Part shown: one piece after another, positions 16,335 to 25,505 of the stretch
How the letters are laid out: the number at the start of each line of letters is the position of its first letter
Numbering within the stretch: position 1 is the stretch's first letter
Virus record (IMG/VR): IMGVR_UViG_3300047461_000064
Span: 1-26,030 of that record
DNA from: a virus
Length of the DNA: 26,030 bases
Direction: 5' to 3' (one strand)
Notes under the pieces: generated by a model
Told to the model about the DNA's origin: nothing
Databases searched by the model: none
Seen by the model: only the letters and a program-made list of their open reading frames with translations
Translations under genes and position numbers: made by a program

Positions 16335-16363
16335 ATTCTACATAACACTCATGTTTTTGTCAA
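16335..16363 (-). promoter_or_regulatory. sigma70-like promoter before the 16331 gene and cpeT
   Basis: The minus strand shows TTGACA (16358-16363), a 17-base spacer and TAGAAT (16335-16340). The -35 overlaps the glutaredoxin stop codon. The predicted start site falls at about 16328, at or just inside the assigned start codon of the downstream gene. This is a sequence match only. Confidence 0.5.
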
Positions 16364-16590
16364 GTCTTAAGAAACATCTCGTGTAAAGTTTCTTTTAGTG
16401 TTCCAATATGGTCTTTGCCTATTGTAACTTGTGGGTATTTAGCGTCTCCACCAAATTCCATTTCAAACTCTGTCTGAGTGAAGTCTTCTCCTAGCACATA
16501 CTCGTGGAAACTATGTCCTTGACTTCGCAAAAGTGAAACTGCACGTTCACACTCTTGATTTCCATTAGAATAAACGACTGACTGTTGCAT
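16360..16590 (-). CDS. glutaredoxin-like protein
   Basis: A 76-residue thioredoxin-fold protein of the short phage glutaredoxin type. SVVYSNGNQEC (4-14) is the first strand and active-site loop, with a single Cys14 where classical glutaredoxins have CPYC. YPQVTIG (52-58) carries the cis-proline loop (Pro53), and HIGTLKETL (61-69) is the C-terminal helix region that normally contacts glutathione. Monothiol-like members use glutathione and can reduce ribonucleotide reductase or bind Fe-S clusters; which applies here is not visible. Length is close to that of phage glutaredoxins. An AGGA lies about 13 bases upstream of the ATG, too far for an ideal ribosome site. It sits between an anchored unknown protein and the coupled unknown/cpeT pair. 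Confidence 0.8.
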   Translation of the reverse strand: MQQSVVYSNGNQECERAVSLLRSQGHSFHEYVLGEDFTQTEFEMEFGGDAKYPQVTIGKDHIGTLKETLHEMFLKT

Positions 16591-18202: not shown

Positions 18203-18210
18203 TATTTATA
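18203..18210 (-). promoter_or_regulatory. late promoter candidate abutting PTOX
   Basis: A perfect minus-strand TATAAATA lies across the stop codon (18206-18208) of the preceding gene. By T4 spacing, transcription would start at or next to the A of the PTOX ATG (18197). It could be a true promoter for a leaderless message or a chance match in AT-rich DNA. Confidence 0.4.
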
Positions 18211-19941: not shown

Positions 19942-20985
19942 TTAATTCAAGAATATCATTGCACCAGTAATCTTGACTGCTGCTGTACCATCCAAATTTA
20001 GGGTTGCTGCAGAAACGTCCATGACACCCTCAGACGTAATCATAGCAGAACCTGTACCCGCCATGTCTAATAATCCTGCTGTGCTAACCTCGACTCCACC
20101 TGTACCTTTTACTGTAGTAAATCCTGATGAAATTATATCTGTTGCTGCAGTACCTCCAGCAGCAAATTGTGTTCTGGTACTCAAACTCATTCCAACTGTT
20201 CTATTCGTAATTAGAGCACCAGGACCTCCAAGAGAAACTAAATGTAAACAACCAAGAGTTCCTATAACAGCATCCTGTGCTGCTCTCATGTTTATGCTGC
20301 CTGGTGAAATTATATTGACCTGTGCACGAGGATCAAATTGCATGAATGTTTCTTCACCAGCACCAAAAGACATTTTCTGACCTGTTACGATATCTTTCTC
20401 GTTAACAGTTATAGTGTTAACACTAGCACCCTGTAACTGTAAGTCACCCTGTGCTGCAATTAATATATTTTGTGCGTCAATTTCTAGTTGATCAGTTGCT
20501 GTTATTAAAATTTTTGTTGCTTTTATACTATGTTGACCACCTATACATTCTTCTACAACATCGCCATATGCAAGAACACTTAATGCTTTGCCCTTACTTT
20601 TTGTTCCTCCCATATTGTATTCATAATATGAAGTAGAAAGATGTTTTTGGTTTGTGCCACCTTCCGAATATAACCCAAGTACAGCACTTCCAGCAATTTC
20701 TGTGTTTTCAGGACCTGTGCGTATTCTGATGCCACCATCATTGCGATATGACATAAAACAACCACCACCTCTAGGACCATCAATCCTTAAAGTCATTGTT
20801 TCTTCGTCTGGAAATACTCTTTCGTAAATTTCTGATCTAGTTCTCCAACCCTTAGCAAGAGTGGTAAAACGAGGACCATCACCTAATTCCTGAGTCTCAT
20901 CAGGGGTCGTCTGCTGAAAAATATCGTCTGGATAATCAACAGCGGGAAAAAATACGCTTTTTGATTGTTGCTTTGGAGGTGTCAT
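19942..20985 (-). CDS. beta-helical tail spike protein (gp5 C-terminal-like), separate from the hub
   Basis: The protein is 347 residues from the ATG at 20985, whose ATGA overlaps the stop of the gp5-like gene; a TTG two codons earlier (20991) is a less likely start. After a polar N-terminus come RVFPDEETMTLRIDGPRGGG and repeated short strands with D/N/G turns: ILITATDQLEIDAQNILIAA, GDLQLQGASVNTITV, INMRAAQDAVIGTLG, and MDVSAATLNLDGTAAVKITG to the end. This is the repeat style of the triple-stranded beta-helix that forms the membrane-piercing needle in T4 gp5 and VgrG. In T4 the helix is fused to the hub; here it is a separate gene coupled to an OB-fold hub protein. The spike role is inferred from repeat pattern and neighbourhood. 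Confidence 0.75.
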   Translation of the reverse strand: MTPPKQQSKSVFFPAVDYPDDIFQQTTPDETQELGDGPRFTTLAKGWRTRSEIYERVFPDEETMTLRIDGPRGGGCFMSYRNDGGIRIRTGPENTEIAGSAVLGLYSEGGTNQKHLSTSYYEYNMGGTKSKGKALSVLAYGDVVEECIGGQHSIKATKILITATDQLEIDAQNILIAAQGDLQLQGASVNTITVNEKDIVTGQKMSFGAGEETFMQFDPRAQVNIISPGSINMRAAQDAVIGTLGCLHLVSLGGPGALITNRTVGMSLSTRTQFAAGGTAATDIISSGFTTVKGTGGVEVSTAGLLDMAGTGSAMITSEGVMDVSAATLNLDGTAAVKITGAMIFLN

Positions 20986-23786
20986 GGGCAATCAACGTAG
21001 CGACCAGTTCCAATCTTAGTAGATCCAACTGCTGATAGTGCTTCTGTATTAAGACATGCTAATGATGGCATTAATCTAGCACCAGATCCACCACCACCTC
21101 TAATAGTAATAGGAGGAAATGCAGAGTAAGTTGTTGTTCTATCTAAAACACGAACTTGTACTAACAAACCATTTTTTACTATTGCTTCCGCACGTCCTTC
21201 TTCTCCATCCACAAGAATTGTTGGAGCACTTGTATATCCTCTGCCAGGACTGAGAATACTAAATGCATCAATAATACATCTAACATCATTATCTGATGCA
21301 AGATTTTTCTTGTAACCAAATCCTGATGATTTAACTCTAATTTCAGTTAAGAATCCATTGCCATCTAATAATCCTGTTGCAGTAGCACCGACTCCCTCAC
21401 CAGCAATGAATACAATAGGAGGTTCTGCCCATGCATCACCTTTATCTTCTACAGGAACTTCTATAATTCCTCCATTATCATCAGTTATAACATTTCGAGT
21501 ATTTACAGTTGGTGGTCTAAAAGTTTCGTAAACAGTAGATGTATCATCGCCAACACCTTGATCAGAATCACCTATACTCTGGTCACTATCAGTAAGAATA
21601 AGAACATCTACAGATGCACCATTACCATTAAGTGTGAAAGTTAATGTTTCTTCATCTTCAATTTCTTTATCATCATTAATACCAACAGTAATTTTTGCTG
21701 TATTATCTTGAATTACAAACTGTCCTCGTAATGAATTACCAACAATATCTGAAGGTGTTATATTATCACCAGTCAAGTAATAATATAATATAGATCCATT
21801 TGGAATATTTGTTGTTGTAACTGTGTATATAATAAATTCTCCCTCAGAAACTGTTTTTCTATTTGCAACAACACTGAATGTTGGATTTGGATCTGGATCA
21901 CCATCTCCCGTTGGAAACCCGTCTATATCAGGTGTCTCATCAATATTTGCAAATGGATCTACAAGGTTTGGATTGAATGGATCGTATGGTTCTTTCAAAT
22001 CTCTCTCTACTATAGTTCCAACACCTATGTTTTTCTTAAATATTGTTTTTACATCATTACCTTCTGGAGAATTTAATGTTAATTTCACATAAAAAACTTC
22101 ATTATCATCGCTTTCGTTATCTACTAAAGTTTGAACTTCTAAAGTTTTTTCAGTTTCGGTAGGAGCAAATCCTAATATATCATCTACAGCAAGATAATCT
22201 GTACCAGCAGTAGCACTCCCTTGATTTGCTAGTGTTTGTACTTTAACAGATGATGCTATGCCAGTAAAACCACTTCTAGTAACAGTAAAACGAGCAGAAC
22301 TTCCCTCTTCTACCTCTACATCTGTAATATCGTATGTGATTTTAGGTTGTTTTGTTGTATCTGTAGGAAGTTTAGGAACCCCACCTATAAATCCAATTGT
22401 TGTTACTGTTAATGGAGATCCAGTGTACGCTTCTTCACAAGTATACTGTGTATAGTCTCTTGGTGTATCACCAAATAAATTATCAATACCATCTAATAAT
22501 CTATCTAAGAAATTCTCATCATCATCTGTTTTTTCCTCACCAGTTGTACATTTTTGCTTAACTTCTTCGCAACTTCTATCAGTTCCAGAACAACTAATTC
22601 CTAATAAATTTAAAATATAATTGATTGCTTTTCCGATTACATTGAATGGAGCAGCAATAGCACCTAGGATATCTTGTAGAGGACCTAAGACACTATTAAG
22701 CAATTGATTCATTAACTGATAAATTTTAGAAATAATACCATTCACTAACTCATCAACCTGACAAATAGCAGCACGATAGATTTGATTAATGTAACTCATT
22801 AAAAGATTTGTCAACCACTCAGCAATTCTAAGATATAAATCTTCCATTTTACATCCAAGATCTTTAAGCATCTTGTTCATCCATTCAGTTGCACCTGTCA
22901 ATACATTTCCACTTTTGTTTGGTCTTAGAAGGAATTTTACTAAAGCGTCAACTGCATCTCTAATTAGTTTTGTTATGTATCCTTTGGCTCCTGCAATAAA
23001 CTCTCTAATAATTGCAACTATTTTATTTACGTATGTCCTTGCCTTTCCTGTAGAACTATAAAGTCCTCCAGTATACTTGTCAACGTAAAAAGTTCCTATA
23101 TTACCATTATTATTTTGTACATTGTAAAGAAATTGACCTAGATTAGTTTTTATTTTATCTTTGAGTTTCTTTTCTTTGCAAGCTTGTGCAGTTTCTGTAC
23201 ACCAATCTTCTTGTTTTATAACTTCAATTTTATTACCAAGATCTACTTTAAATTGAGCTTTGCCATTATATTCTTTCGTTGATCCATCAGATTGTACACC
23301 AACTAGATCGTTTGTCTCTGATTTACTCGGATCTCCATCTTTATCTGGGTTTACAGTAAATCTTGGTTCTAATCTTATTCCAGTTTTAAATCTAGAATCA
23401 TCATCGTCTGGTGATACTTCATTCTTGACTGTAGTAGCACCAGGCACTTGTCCAATAGAACCCATGATGATAGGTTTCTGTTTATCATTATCTAAGTAGA
23501 AACCAATCACCCAACAACCTGGTATTAGTTGAGCAGATGCTCCACCAATATTACCAGGCATGAAAGGTGTGGTAACAGGCATCATCACAGTTGCCCATGG
23601 TAGTTTTTTTGTTTCTAAGAGTTGCTTAGATCTAGGATGCTCTCCTACAATCGCAACCTTATACCGCCAACCACCTTTTCCTTTGGTGTTTGACGCAGTT
23701 TCTTCTATTTGACCTACCCACCAAGATAATCCATCATTACCTATTTTGTGACTAGGAACTAACCGTGACAGTGCTTCATCATTCAT
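20982..23786 (-). CDS. gp5-like baseplate hub protein, OB-fold plus Calx-beta-type domains, no lysozyme seen
   Basis: A 934-residue protein. Residues about 20-115 match the gp5/VgrG OB-fold: WWVGQIEE (22-29), YKVAIVGEHPRS (42-53), LPWATVMMPVTTP (62-74), GCWVIGFYLDNDKQKPIIMG (90-109). Then come a charged linker, a long helical hydrophobic region (about 250-400, with QLLNSVLGPLQDILGAI), a Cys-rich stretch (CSGTDRSCEEVKQKC), a Calx-beta-like domain (about 475-590, VEVEEGSSARFTVTRSG), a second similar domain (about 635-735, KTVSEGEFIIYTVTTTN), and glycine-rich GRGYTSAPTILVDG segments before the end GTGRYVDCP. I see no T4-type lysozyme catalytic motif. It would trimerise at the hub above the spike encoded by the next, overlapping gene. 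It starts two bases after the CP12-like stop. Confidence 0.8.
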   Translation of the reverse strand: MNDEALSRLVPSHKIGNDGLSWWVGQIEETASNTKGKGGWRYKVAIVGEHPRSKQLLETKKLPWATVMMPVTTPFMPGNIGGASAQLIPGCWVIGFYLDNDKQKPIIMGSIGQVPGATTVKNEVSPDDDDSRFKTGIRLEPRFTVNPDKDGDPSKSETNDLVGVQSDGSTKEYNGKAQFKVDLGNKIEVIKQEDWCTETAQACKEKKLKDKIKTNLGQFLYNVQNNNGNIGTFYVDKYTGGLYSSTGKARTYVNKIVAIIREFIAGAKGYITKLIRDAVDALVKFLLRPNKSGNVLTGATEWMNKMLKDLGCKMEDLYLRIAEWLTNLLMSYINQIYRAAICQVDELVNGIISKIYQLMNQLLNSVLGPLQDILGAIAAPFNVIGKAINYILNLLGISCSGTDRSCEEVKQKCTTGEEKTDDDENFLDRLLDGIDNLFGDTPRDYTQYTCEEAYTGSPLTVTTIGFIGGVPKLPTDTTKQPKITYDITDVEVEEGSSARFTVTRSGFTGIASSVKVQTLANQGSATAGTDYLAVDDILGFAPTETEKTLEVQTLVDNESDDNEVFYVKLTLNSPEGNDVKTIFKKNIGVGTIVERDLKEPYDPFNPNLVDPFANIDETPDIDGFPTGDGDPDPNPTFSVVANRKTVSEGEFIIYTVTTTNIPNGSILYYYLTGDNITPSDIVGNSLRGQFVIQDNTAKITVGINDDKEIEDEETLTFTLNGNGASVDVLILTDSDQSIGDSDQGVGDDTSTVYETFRPPTVNTRNVITDDNGGIIEVPVEDKGDAWAEPPIVFIAGEGVGATATGLLDGNGFLTEIRVKSSGFGYKKNLASDNDVRCIIDAFSILSPGRGYTSAPTILVDGEEGRAEAIVKNGLLVQVRVLDRTTTYSAFPPITIRGGGGSGARLMPSLACLNTEALSAVGSTKIGTGRYVDCP

Positions 23787-23788
23787 GT

Positions 23789-24016
23789 TTAATCGTCATA
23801 TATTAGACACTCAGGTTCATCAGGGTGTACATCACAGAATACCTCTAATACATTAGGGTCATGATGATCTCCTGCCTTTATTTCGTCTTTGTGATGTTCT
23901 ACATACTCTTCTAAGTCATGCAACTCATCTTCAATGTGATGACGCATGGGTTCTGATGTTTTTGGATCTTCAAGGATTTCTTTGTCCTTTTTGATATGAT
24001 CTTCAATTGATTTCAT
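23789..24016 (-). CDS. cp12: CP12-like Calvin-cycle regulator
   Basis: A 75-residue acidic, His-rich, probably flexible protein. Its C-terminus, LEVFCDVHPDEPECLIYDD (57-75), matches CP12: two Cys (61 and 70) separated by eight residues, the PxxxEC core and the YDD end. ELHDLEEYVEHH (31-42) sits where CP12 has its AWDxVEEL helix. The N-terminal Cys pair of plant CP12 is absent, as in many short forms. CP12 bridges glyceraldehyde-3-phosphate dehydrogenase and phosphoribulokinase and inhibits the Calvin cycle; in cyanophages it is thought to steer carbon to the pentose phosphate route. One oddity is Leu after the last Cys, where CP12 usually has Arg. It lies between two baseplate hub genes and has the strongest ribosome site in the window (GGAGGT, 24024-24029). 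Confidence 0.8.
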   Translation of the reverse strand: MKSIEDHIKKDKEILEDPKTSEPMRHHIEDELHDLEEYVEHHKDEIKAGDHHDPNVLEVFCDVHPDEPECLIYDD

Positions 24017-24023
24017 TGTATTT

Positions 24024-24042
24024 ACCTCCGTACAGTATGTAC
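24024..24042 (-). promoter_or_regulatory. strong ribosome site abutting a 13-base palindrome before the CP12-like gene
   Basis: GGAGGT (24024-24029) lies seven bases before the ATG. Directly upstream, GTACAGTATGTAC (24030-24042) is a 5-3-5 inverted repeat. A late-promoter-like AATAAATA (one mismatch to TATAAATA) lies just beyond, near 24047-24054. Together they suggest separate control of this gene inside the baseplate operon. Confidence 0.45.
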
Positions 24043-24050
24043 ATTATTAT

Positions 24051-25505
24051 TTATTCGCCATGTGCTGATGGATCTACATCAGTTCCATAAGAATCTCTGA
24101 ATAATCTTAGCGTAGAATATCCATTTCCGCTAGTACCTCCGTTAACAAAGTTAAATGTATGTGTGACTTCCTTAACAAGATAAACTCCACTAGACTCTTT
24201 ATCGTATGGTGTCTCCTCCTTCAGTGCATCTGGTAACTTACTGTTTAAACGTAATGTAATTTTATCTCCTGAGCAAATAAGAGGATTAGGAGGAATTTTT
24301 AATGTTCCCTCTTGATTCTTAAGTAAATCATATCTAGCAACTGACTGTGCAGCATAATATTTTACCCAATCAGCATATTCTGTGGGATTTTCTACCTTTG
24401 GATCTTCTGGATCTTTTACCTCTGGATCATCATACCATGTCTCACTATCCAATACAGCAGACATAACTCTAGTTGGTTTTCCAGATAATTCATCAGTATT
24501 TCCTGGCACTAGAGATACTGTAGATTGTCCTCCTAGATGTGCCATGTTACTATAACTATCTTTAATTTTATAAACATACTCATCATATTGACCAGTACTG
24601 TGATTAAAAAATACCATTTTTGTAGAATATTTACCGAGTCTTAATGATGACATAAGATCAACTTCAGCATTAAGAGTAAATGCTGTTATATTAAACCTAG
24701 CATCTCCTGATGCATCTGTATTTGCTATAACCTCAACATAAGGACCCCACGATTGTGATTTTAAACTTGGTACGTTATCTTTTTTAACTATAAAGAGTTC
24801 TTCTTCAGATGTATCACATAAAGCATCTATTGAAAAAAGATTATATCCTCTATTATTTTCCCAAAAGAAAAAACCAGCACTTCCTCTTATCTGTTGTTCC
24901 GATCCCGTTGTATTTTCTGTTTGATCTTGTCCATATGTTGTTTTACTAGATACTGATCTTTTTATAAGTTGTGCAACTATATCAAATGGTCTTTTATTAT
25001 TAGGAATCATTCTTACTTTAAATCTTGATGGTTCAGAAAATACTTCTTTACTTGATTTTAATTCCTCTCTAATCATTTTAATAATTATTGATGATGGTTC
25101 TCCATCTTGCTGTGTCTGAATTCTAACGCTTTCATTTACTAAAGCTTCTTCAGAAACTAACAGTAAATTATAAACTTGTTTCTTACCATCTATAATTCTA
25201 CTAGCAATTTTATAAATTCTAAAACTATATTTTTGTGCATCTTTATTAAATGAGTGTTTTATTGCCAATTCAACTTCTTCACCACCTTCTATTGGAAAAG
25301 TGTTAATAAAATCTTTTGAGTCACTAAGAACTAAAGCTCCTGATACAAATGGAGACAATATACTCTCCATGTAATCAAAACTAATTATCATATCAGTTCC
25401 AATAGTTCTTTCTTTGCAAACTTTTGCTTTATTATCAATTTTTCTGAAAACACAACCCTCAAGTGATATTTGAGTTGGGTGTTGTTCTTTCTTATCTTCT
25501 GCCAT
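24051..25505 (-). CDS. gp27-like baseplate hub protein
   Basis: A 484-residue protein resembling the hub/collar family of T4 gp27. It has GTDMIISFDYMESILSPFVSGALVLSDSKDF near residues 37-67, EGGEEVELAIKHSF, then RPFDIVAQLIKRSV and a GFFFWENNRGYNLFSIDAL segment (about 213-231). Its end contains VYLVKEVTHTFNFVNGG and an acidic tail. gp27 forms the trimeric ring that joins the tail tube to the gp5 spike complex, which fits its place just before the gp5-like gene. It is somewhat longer than T4 gp27 (391 residues). Its start overlaps the preceding stop by one base (TAATG), indicating coupling. The assignment rests on fold-type motifs and synteny; confidence is moderate. Confidence 0.7.
   Translation of the reverse strand: MAEDKKEQHPTQISLEGCVFRKIDNKAKVCKERTIGTDMIISFDYMESILSPFVSGALVLSDSKDFINTFPIEGGEEVELAIKHSFNKDAQKYSFRIYKIASRIIDGKKQVYNLLLVSEEALVNESVRIQTQQDGEPSSIIIKMIREELKSSKEVFSEPSRFKVRMIPNNKRPFDIVAQLIKRSVSSKTTYGQDQTENTTGSEQQIRGSAGFFFWENNRGYNLFSIDALCDTSEEELFIVKKDNVPSLKSQSWGPYVEVIANTDASGDARFNITAFTLNAEVDLMSSLRLGKYSTKMVFFNHSTGQYDEYVYKIKDSYSNMAHLGGQSTVSLVPGNTDELSGKPTRVMSAVLDSETWYDDPEVKDPEDPKVENPTEYADWVKYYAAQSVARYDLLKNQEGTLKIPPNPLICSGDKITLRLNSKLPDALKEETPYDKESSGVYLVKEVTHTFNFVNGGTSGNGYSTLRLFRDSYGTDVDPSAHGE

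Follow-up and report, generated by a model that had tools for sequence, protein, structure and literature searches.

Canonical CP12 proteins carry an AWD_VEEL core in addition to two pairs of Cys residues (PMC3906501, PMC9406205). The phage-encoded form occupies a central place in the model according to which cyanophages shut carbon fixation and feed nucleotide synthesis, and it has been reported that phage CP12 is expressed and that the NADPH/NADP ratio rises twofold in the course of infection (PMC5082946). The expression evidence considered here rests on P-HM2, a phage in which the position of cp12 is unusual. Sullivan et al. noted in 2010 that the location of the gene varies, from the psbA region to "near gp5", and that S-PM2 lacks it (PMC3037559). 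We have analyzed a 26,030-base record of a marine cyanobacterial virus (the whole stretch is referred to as the window), in which cp12 is enclosed by two baseplate hub genes (Table 1).

The 75-residue product of the reading frame is a genuine CP12. A sequence-only reading of the same DNA had recognized the C-terminal double-Cys signature of the family and had proposed a search against the CP12 profile, and that search indeed resulted in a match to the Pfam family over residues 3-74 (E 1.1e-11, 45.8 bits at a cut-off of 22.7). The PHROGs profile search yielded phrog_627 (E 5.8e-38), which is listed in that database as unnamed and of unknown function, yet the family is CP12. The NCBIfam search returned no CP12 match. 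The signature itself is formed by the pair C61/C70 with a central Pro, C61-DVHPDEPE-C70-LIYDD, and thus ends in an acidic, Tyr-containing tail; the Cys pair and the Pro are invariant in an alignment of diverse phage copies (17/17). C61 and C70 are the only Cys residues of the protein, and both the N-terminal Cys pair and the AWD_VEEL core of the canonical CP12-N/C class are absent. Profile matches were also obtained to the CP12 chains that were solved with GAPDH/PRK (6gfo/6gve, 3zdf and 3b1j), in which the CxxxPxxxxC...YDD segment was aligned. Moreover, the C-terminal segment that contacts GAPDH according to the solved complexes is as well conserved in the phage copies as it is in the hosts. 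In a Foldseek search with the CP12 model the top match was the full-length CP12 with GAPDH (6gfo), at an E of 0.76 that is below significance. Selection on the gene is strongly purifying, with a median dN/dS of about 0.05 at a median dS of 1.75 among relatives, and this combination of large synonymous and small protein change implies that the product is a real, selected protein. Besides this presumably redox-regulated CP12, the same fragment carries a small glutaredoxin-like ORF (16360-16590).

Table 1. Features of the cp12 region, in positions of the window.
Feature	Position	Strand	Basis
cp12 ORF, phage CP12 (PF02672; phrog_627), 75 aa	23789..24016	-	ORF translation, profile matches, dN/dS
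Strong Shine-Dalgarno (SD) GGAGG, 8 nt before ATG	24025..24029	-	sequence; 4-nt SD before cp12 in 64/80 relatives
Perfect 5+5 palindrome GTACA-TAC-TGTAC (GTACATACTGTAC)	24030..24042	-	part of conserved leader element TGTACATACTGTACGGAGG
Late-promoter motif AATAAATA, starts at -39, overlaps gp27 stop codon	24048..24055	-	exact match to NATAAATA
gp27-like baseplate hub protein, 484 aa, phrog_350 'tail protein'	24051..25505	-	PHROGs, predicted structure, Foldseek
gp5-like baseplate hub protein, 934 aa, phrog_1922, Gp5_OB + Calx-beta	20982..23786	-	PHROGs, Pfam

The location between a gp27-like and a gp5-like gene, which had been proposed from the letters alone, was borne out for both neighbours. 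The AlphaFold model of the upstream product was made from 28 homologues (pTM 0.80), and its top PDB matches in Foldseek were T4 gp27 in the gp27-gp5 complex (2z6b_D, E 2.8e-17; 1k28_D, E 2.7e-16); judged by this predicted structure, the upstream neighbour has the gp27 fold. The downstream product matched the family 'baseplate hub subunit and tail lysozyme' (E 1.5e-254) as well as the Pfam domain Gp5_OB. Its Calx-beta domain (residues 478-574, E 6.1e-14) is, to our knowledge, not known in T4 gp5.

Neither the gene nor its location is new: the position is usual, and most of the sampled cyanomyovirus copies reside in the gp27-gp5 slot. The gene is present in at least 362 phage records. Within a context sample of 80 close IMG/VR loci it is flanked by both gp27 and gp5 in 56 cases, adjoins gp5 in 10 more and lies elsewhere in the remaining 14. 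Among the named phages, the strict order gp27-cp12-gp5 is found in S-SM2, ACG-2014e, ACG-2014j, Sf-CH8, S-SCSM1, S-WAM2, DSL-LC03 and S-RSM4, and a slot in which cp12 is followed by cpeT, tRNA-Val or other genes before gp5 in P-TIM40, P-RSM4, P-SSM3, S-H38, S-SSM6b, S-RIM2, Syn2, Syn9 and S-SM1. The exceptions are P-HM1, P-HM2 and MED4-213, where cp12 adjoins talC, P-TIM68, where it adjoins baseplate wedge genes, and P-SSM2. Several assemblies labelled 'Euryarchaeota', Chloroflexota, Rhodopirellula and Nonlabens (cf. L129) contain phage cp12 contigs, which fits contamination, and one phage copy (L099, reverse strand, after 6106) has an in-frame stop after ELHDL with the leader and the rest of the gene intact.

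In a tree of 64 sequences, made from a short alignment and with weak inner branching within the phage clade, the 39 phage copies constitute one clade (support 100/96) beside the CP12 of the picocyanobacterial hosts. Phage cp12 was thus probably acquired once, long ago, from a lineage ancestral or closely related to these hosts. Since the non-hub copies (the P-HM group, P-TIM68 and the loci L048 and L057) nest inside the phage clade and its deep rows are hub-located, the tree also suggests that the hub position is older than the other positions of the gene.

The leader of cp12 contains the strong ribosome site and the palindrome that the sequence-only reading had described. The element that was considered there as near to a late promoter turned out to be even an exact match, at a promoter-like distance, to NATAAATA, the published late-promoter motif of the cyanomyoviruses (PMC2984593). 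The position of AATAAATA at -39 is conserved in the subclade of the window. The window shows no excess of the heptamer ATAAATA (4 occurrences versus 9 expected from shuffling), and from the shuffling expectation the chance of encountering it on the sense strand of the ~34-nt leader is about 0.006. Across 17 loci the leader is invariant in 30 of 36 columns, versus 0 of 120 in the adjacent 3' coding end of gp27. The 19-nt element TGTACATACTGTACGGAGG was found in 22 viral contigs, in each case directly before cp12 (22/22), and nowhere else. In the named-phage loci, which are related sequences and not independent, NATAAATA is present at -45 to -15 of 8/20 cp12 genes versus 4/122 other ORFs. Among the 80 IMG/VR loci, TATAAATA is found at about -33 in 10 of the 14 that lie outside the hub. 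However, NATAAATA is absent from the 70 nt that precede cp12 in 36 of the 56 hub loci, so there the gene would be read from tail genes further upstream. A further TATAAATA lies at 18203-18210 of the window, where only some 5 nt separate it from the ATG that opens the plastoquinol terminal oxidase gene, and a late transcript of that gene would have almost no leader.

Applying the promoter spacing of T4-like phages, we would expect transcription from the motif before cp12 to start near 24042, the first base of the palindrome. As to an RNA hairpin, the folding energy of the leader was no better than that of shuffled sequences (z about -0.6). Two relatives carry GTGCA in place of GTACA and keep the pairing as a G-U pair, cases that are too few to count; the Rfam search gave no match. 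This leader may be of use to gp5 no less than to cp12.

We consider it likely that the window encodes a picocyanobacterial-type CP12 that was acquired once, has been kept in the gp27-gp5 slot, acts as a GAPDH/PRK-binding brake on the Calvin cycle and is probably transcribed late. We infer that the C-terminal disulfide segment would bind the photosynthetic GAPDH of the host, and PRK with it. The resulting slowdown of the Calvin cycle would divert NADPH and carbon into the pentose phosphate pathway and the synthesis of nucleotides. The gene would be transcribed together with the hub genes, from a late promoter of the gp55 type immediately ahead of it, and a single leader would suffice for both cp12 and gp5, the start of which lies 2 nt past cp12. 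The combination of late motif, strong SD and conserved palindrome supports late expression with the hub genes, and the late production that had been anticipated for this copy is plausible on the basis of its leader. A comparison between phages points in the direction of a role in carbon fixation: S-RSM4, in which cp12 and gp5 are arranged in the same order as in the window, is reported to bring CO2 fixation to a stop in about 2 h, sooner than S-PM2 does (PMC10452541). The contrast with the cp12-less S-PM2 is suggestive, and only that, because S-RSM4 has other pentose-phosphate genes too.

What counts against the late reading is that cp12 is a highly expressed middle gene in P-HM2, where auxiliary metabolic genes (AMGs) are exclusively middle, and that 95% of the genes common to P-HM2 and P-SSM2 retain their time class (PMC5082946). 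CP12 could therefore have the same role but be a middle product as in P-HM2, in which case NATAAATA would either belong to a set of overlapping early and late starts or be meant for gp5 only. It has indeed been proposed that the middle genes of cyanomyoviruses carry overlapping early and late promoters (PMC2984593), a sigma-70-like match (9/12) overlaps the cp12 leader, and read-through from upstream could make the protein earlier. We nevertheless regard this alternative as somewhat unlikely. A scan for sigma-70-like promoters in the window region revealed 20 matches where 22.3 were expected, no excess over shuffled sequences. Moreover, the P-HM2 gene precedes talC, outside the hub cluster, and has a TTGACA box in its leader. 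Considering that this copy stands in a different place with a different leader, the hub-located copies may be late.

As a tentative generalization, which may well prove too broad, we suggest that most T4-like cyanophages produce CP12 late from an ancestral gp27-gp5 home, through a late promoter or hub read-through into gp5, and that the 'middle' timing of P-HM2 is derived and results from the relocation to talC. If the hub-located cp12 is indeed late, the inhibition of the Calvin cycle would be tied to virion assembly, and the current model would have to be revised in its timing part for the majority of T4-like cyanophages.

The sequence-only reading had also drawn attention to the Leu that replaces the usual Arg after the last Cys. 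The Leu is indeed there, and the suggestion that it may change partner binding did not hold up, as the residue is found in 80/80 close phage relatives and in 25 of the 36 host-family loci that were sampled, one of the 25 being a phage copy in a single-cell genome (L133); the other 11 host-family loci have Arg. A phage-specific change can be ruled out, the Leu being common to hosts. The AWD core and the N-terminal Cys pair are each absent from all host-family loci (0/36), and the N-terminal Cys pair, the core and Arg are present in all of the other cyanobacteria (20/20). Because the picocyanobacterial hosts share the Leu and the missing N-terminal features with the phages, inheritance from the host lineage is the simplest explanation, and with an inherited Leu there is no ground for supposing that the phage protein binds the GAPDH of its host differently. 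Two further observations relate to the host genes. The Prochlorococcus single cell AG-418-C09 (L119/L133) holds a host cp12 and a phage cp12 together, which fits an infected cell. In addition, the host CP12 of two genomes (L183 1741-1974, beside obg; L124/L131) has the phage-type 5-residue insertion (HHKEEIEAGDHHDP) and may represent a donor lineage or reflect gene conversion from phage.

The N-terminal half of canonical CP12 contacts PRK. This half is divergent in phage CP12, which counts against the explanation that we prefer. In fact, the missing N-terminal Cys pair and AWD core could mean that the phage protein binds GAPDH only, not PRK, and acts as a truncated competitor of the host CP12. 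This seems unlikely: the CP12 of the picocyanobacterial hosts lacks the same parts, and, as reviewed in PMC9406205, the ternary complex forms despite an absent N-terminal pair in S. elongatus PCC7942 and Galdieria.

The nearest neighbours of cp12 in the window are virion genes, and an injected, virion-associated protein was among the roles that had been considered for this copy. As part of the particle, or attached to it, CP12 would enter the cell along with the DNA and act at once. In S-SM1, where cp12 resides in the gp27-gp5 slot, the measured virion proteome (41 proteins) comprises gp5 and T4-GC15, the tail protein that adjoins cp12, whereas the paper treats CP12 under carbon metabolism and counts the virion structural proteins apart (PMC3037559), an indirect argument against CP12 in the virion. 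Furthermore, the copies beside talC (P-HM1, P-HM2 and MED4-213) and those elsewhere in other loci have no structural neighbour. Virion association of CP12 is thus unlikely, and delivery of an active protein with the DNA highly improbable.

The junction with gp5 is tight. In the window gp5 has no SD of its own, and in 64 of 64 loci the gap between cp12 and an SD-less gp5 measures -1 to +5 nt. Translational coupling of gp5 to cp12 is not a distinctive feature of the arrangement, since gp5 is also without SD in 9/9 named-phage loci where other genes (cpeT, tRNA) separate the two. The long residence of cp12 between gp27 and gp5 and this junction could be taken to indicate that CP12 was co-opted as a small factor for baseplate or hub assembly and lost its metabolic regulation, an idea to which we attach very little credence, as the GAPDH-binding segment is conserved as in the hosts, S-PM2 does without the gene (PMC3037559), other phages carry it away from the hub locus with its sequence kept, and the coupling is not special.

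The CP12 of the window can be placed among the known forms as a probable regulator of the Calvin cycle, probably late, that has the C-terminal GAPDH-binding segment in common with the canonical protein of S. elongatus/T. elongatus and the chloroplast, whereas it has neither the N-terminal Cys pair nor the AWD_VEEL core of the latter (20/20 sampled). Picocyanobacterial host CP12 (Prochlorococcus/Synechococcus; adjoining obg in L123 and L183) resembles the phage form in the absence of both and in the C-terminal CxxxPxxxxC with a CLVYDD or CRVYDD tail, but the phage proteins usually have a 5-aa insertion before DHHDP, have a different N-terminal region and constitute a separate clade. The cp12 genes of P-HM1, P-HM2 and MED4-213 belong to the same phage clade and encode the same protein as the window copy; they differ in their location before talC, in a TTGACA-containing leader and, for P-HM2, in being a middle gene (PMC5082946). 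The closest resemblance is to the cyanophage CP12 of T4-GC 337 (Syn9 gp17, S-RSM4 SRSM4_226, S-SM1 SSM1_018), which is of the same family and measures 70-75 aa, shares the gp27-like/gp5 neighbourhood and has the Leu past the last Cys in most copies. The identity of the window copy with those of the named phages does not exceed 77%, and the copy is distinguished from them by the conserved 19-nt leader element, which is seen only in its own subclade.
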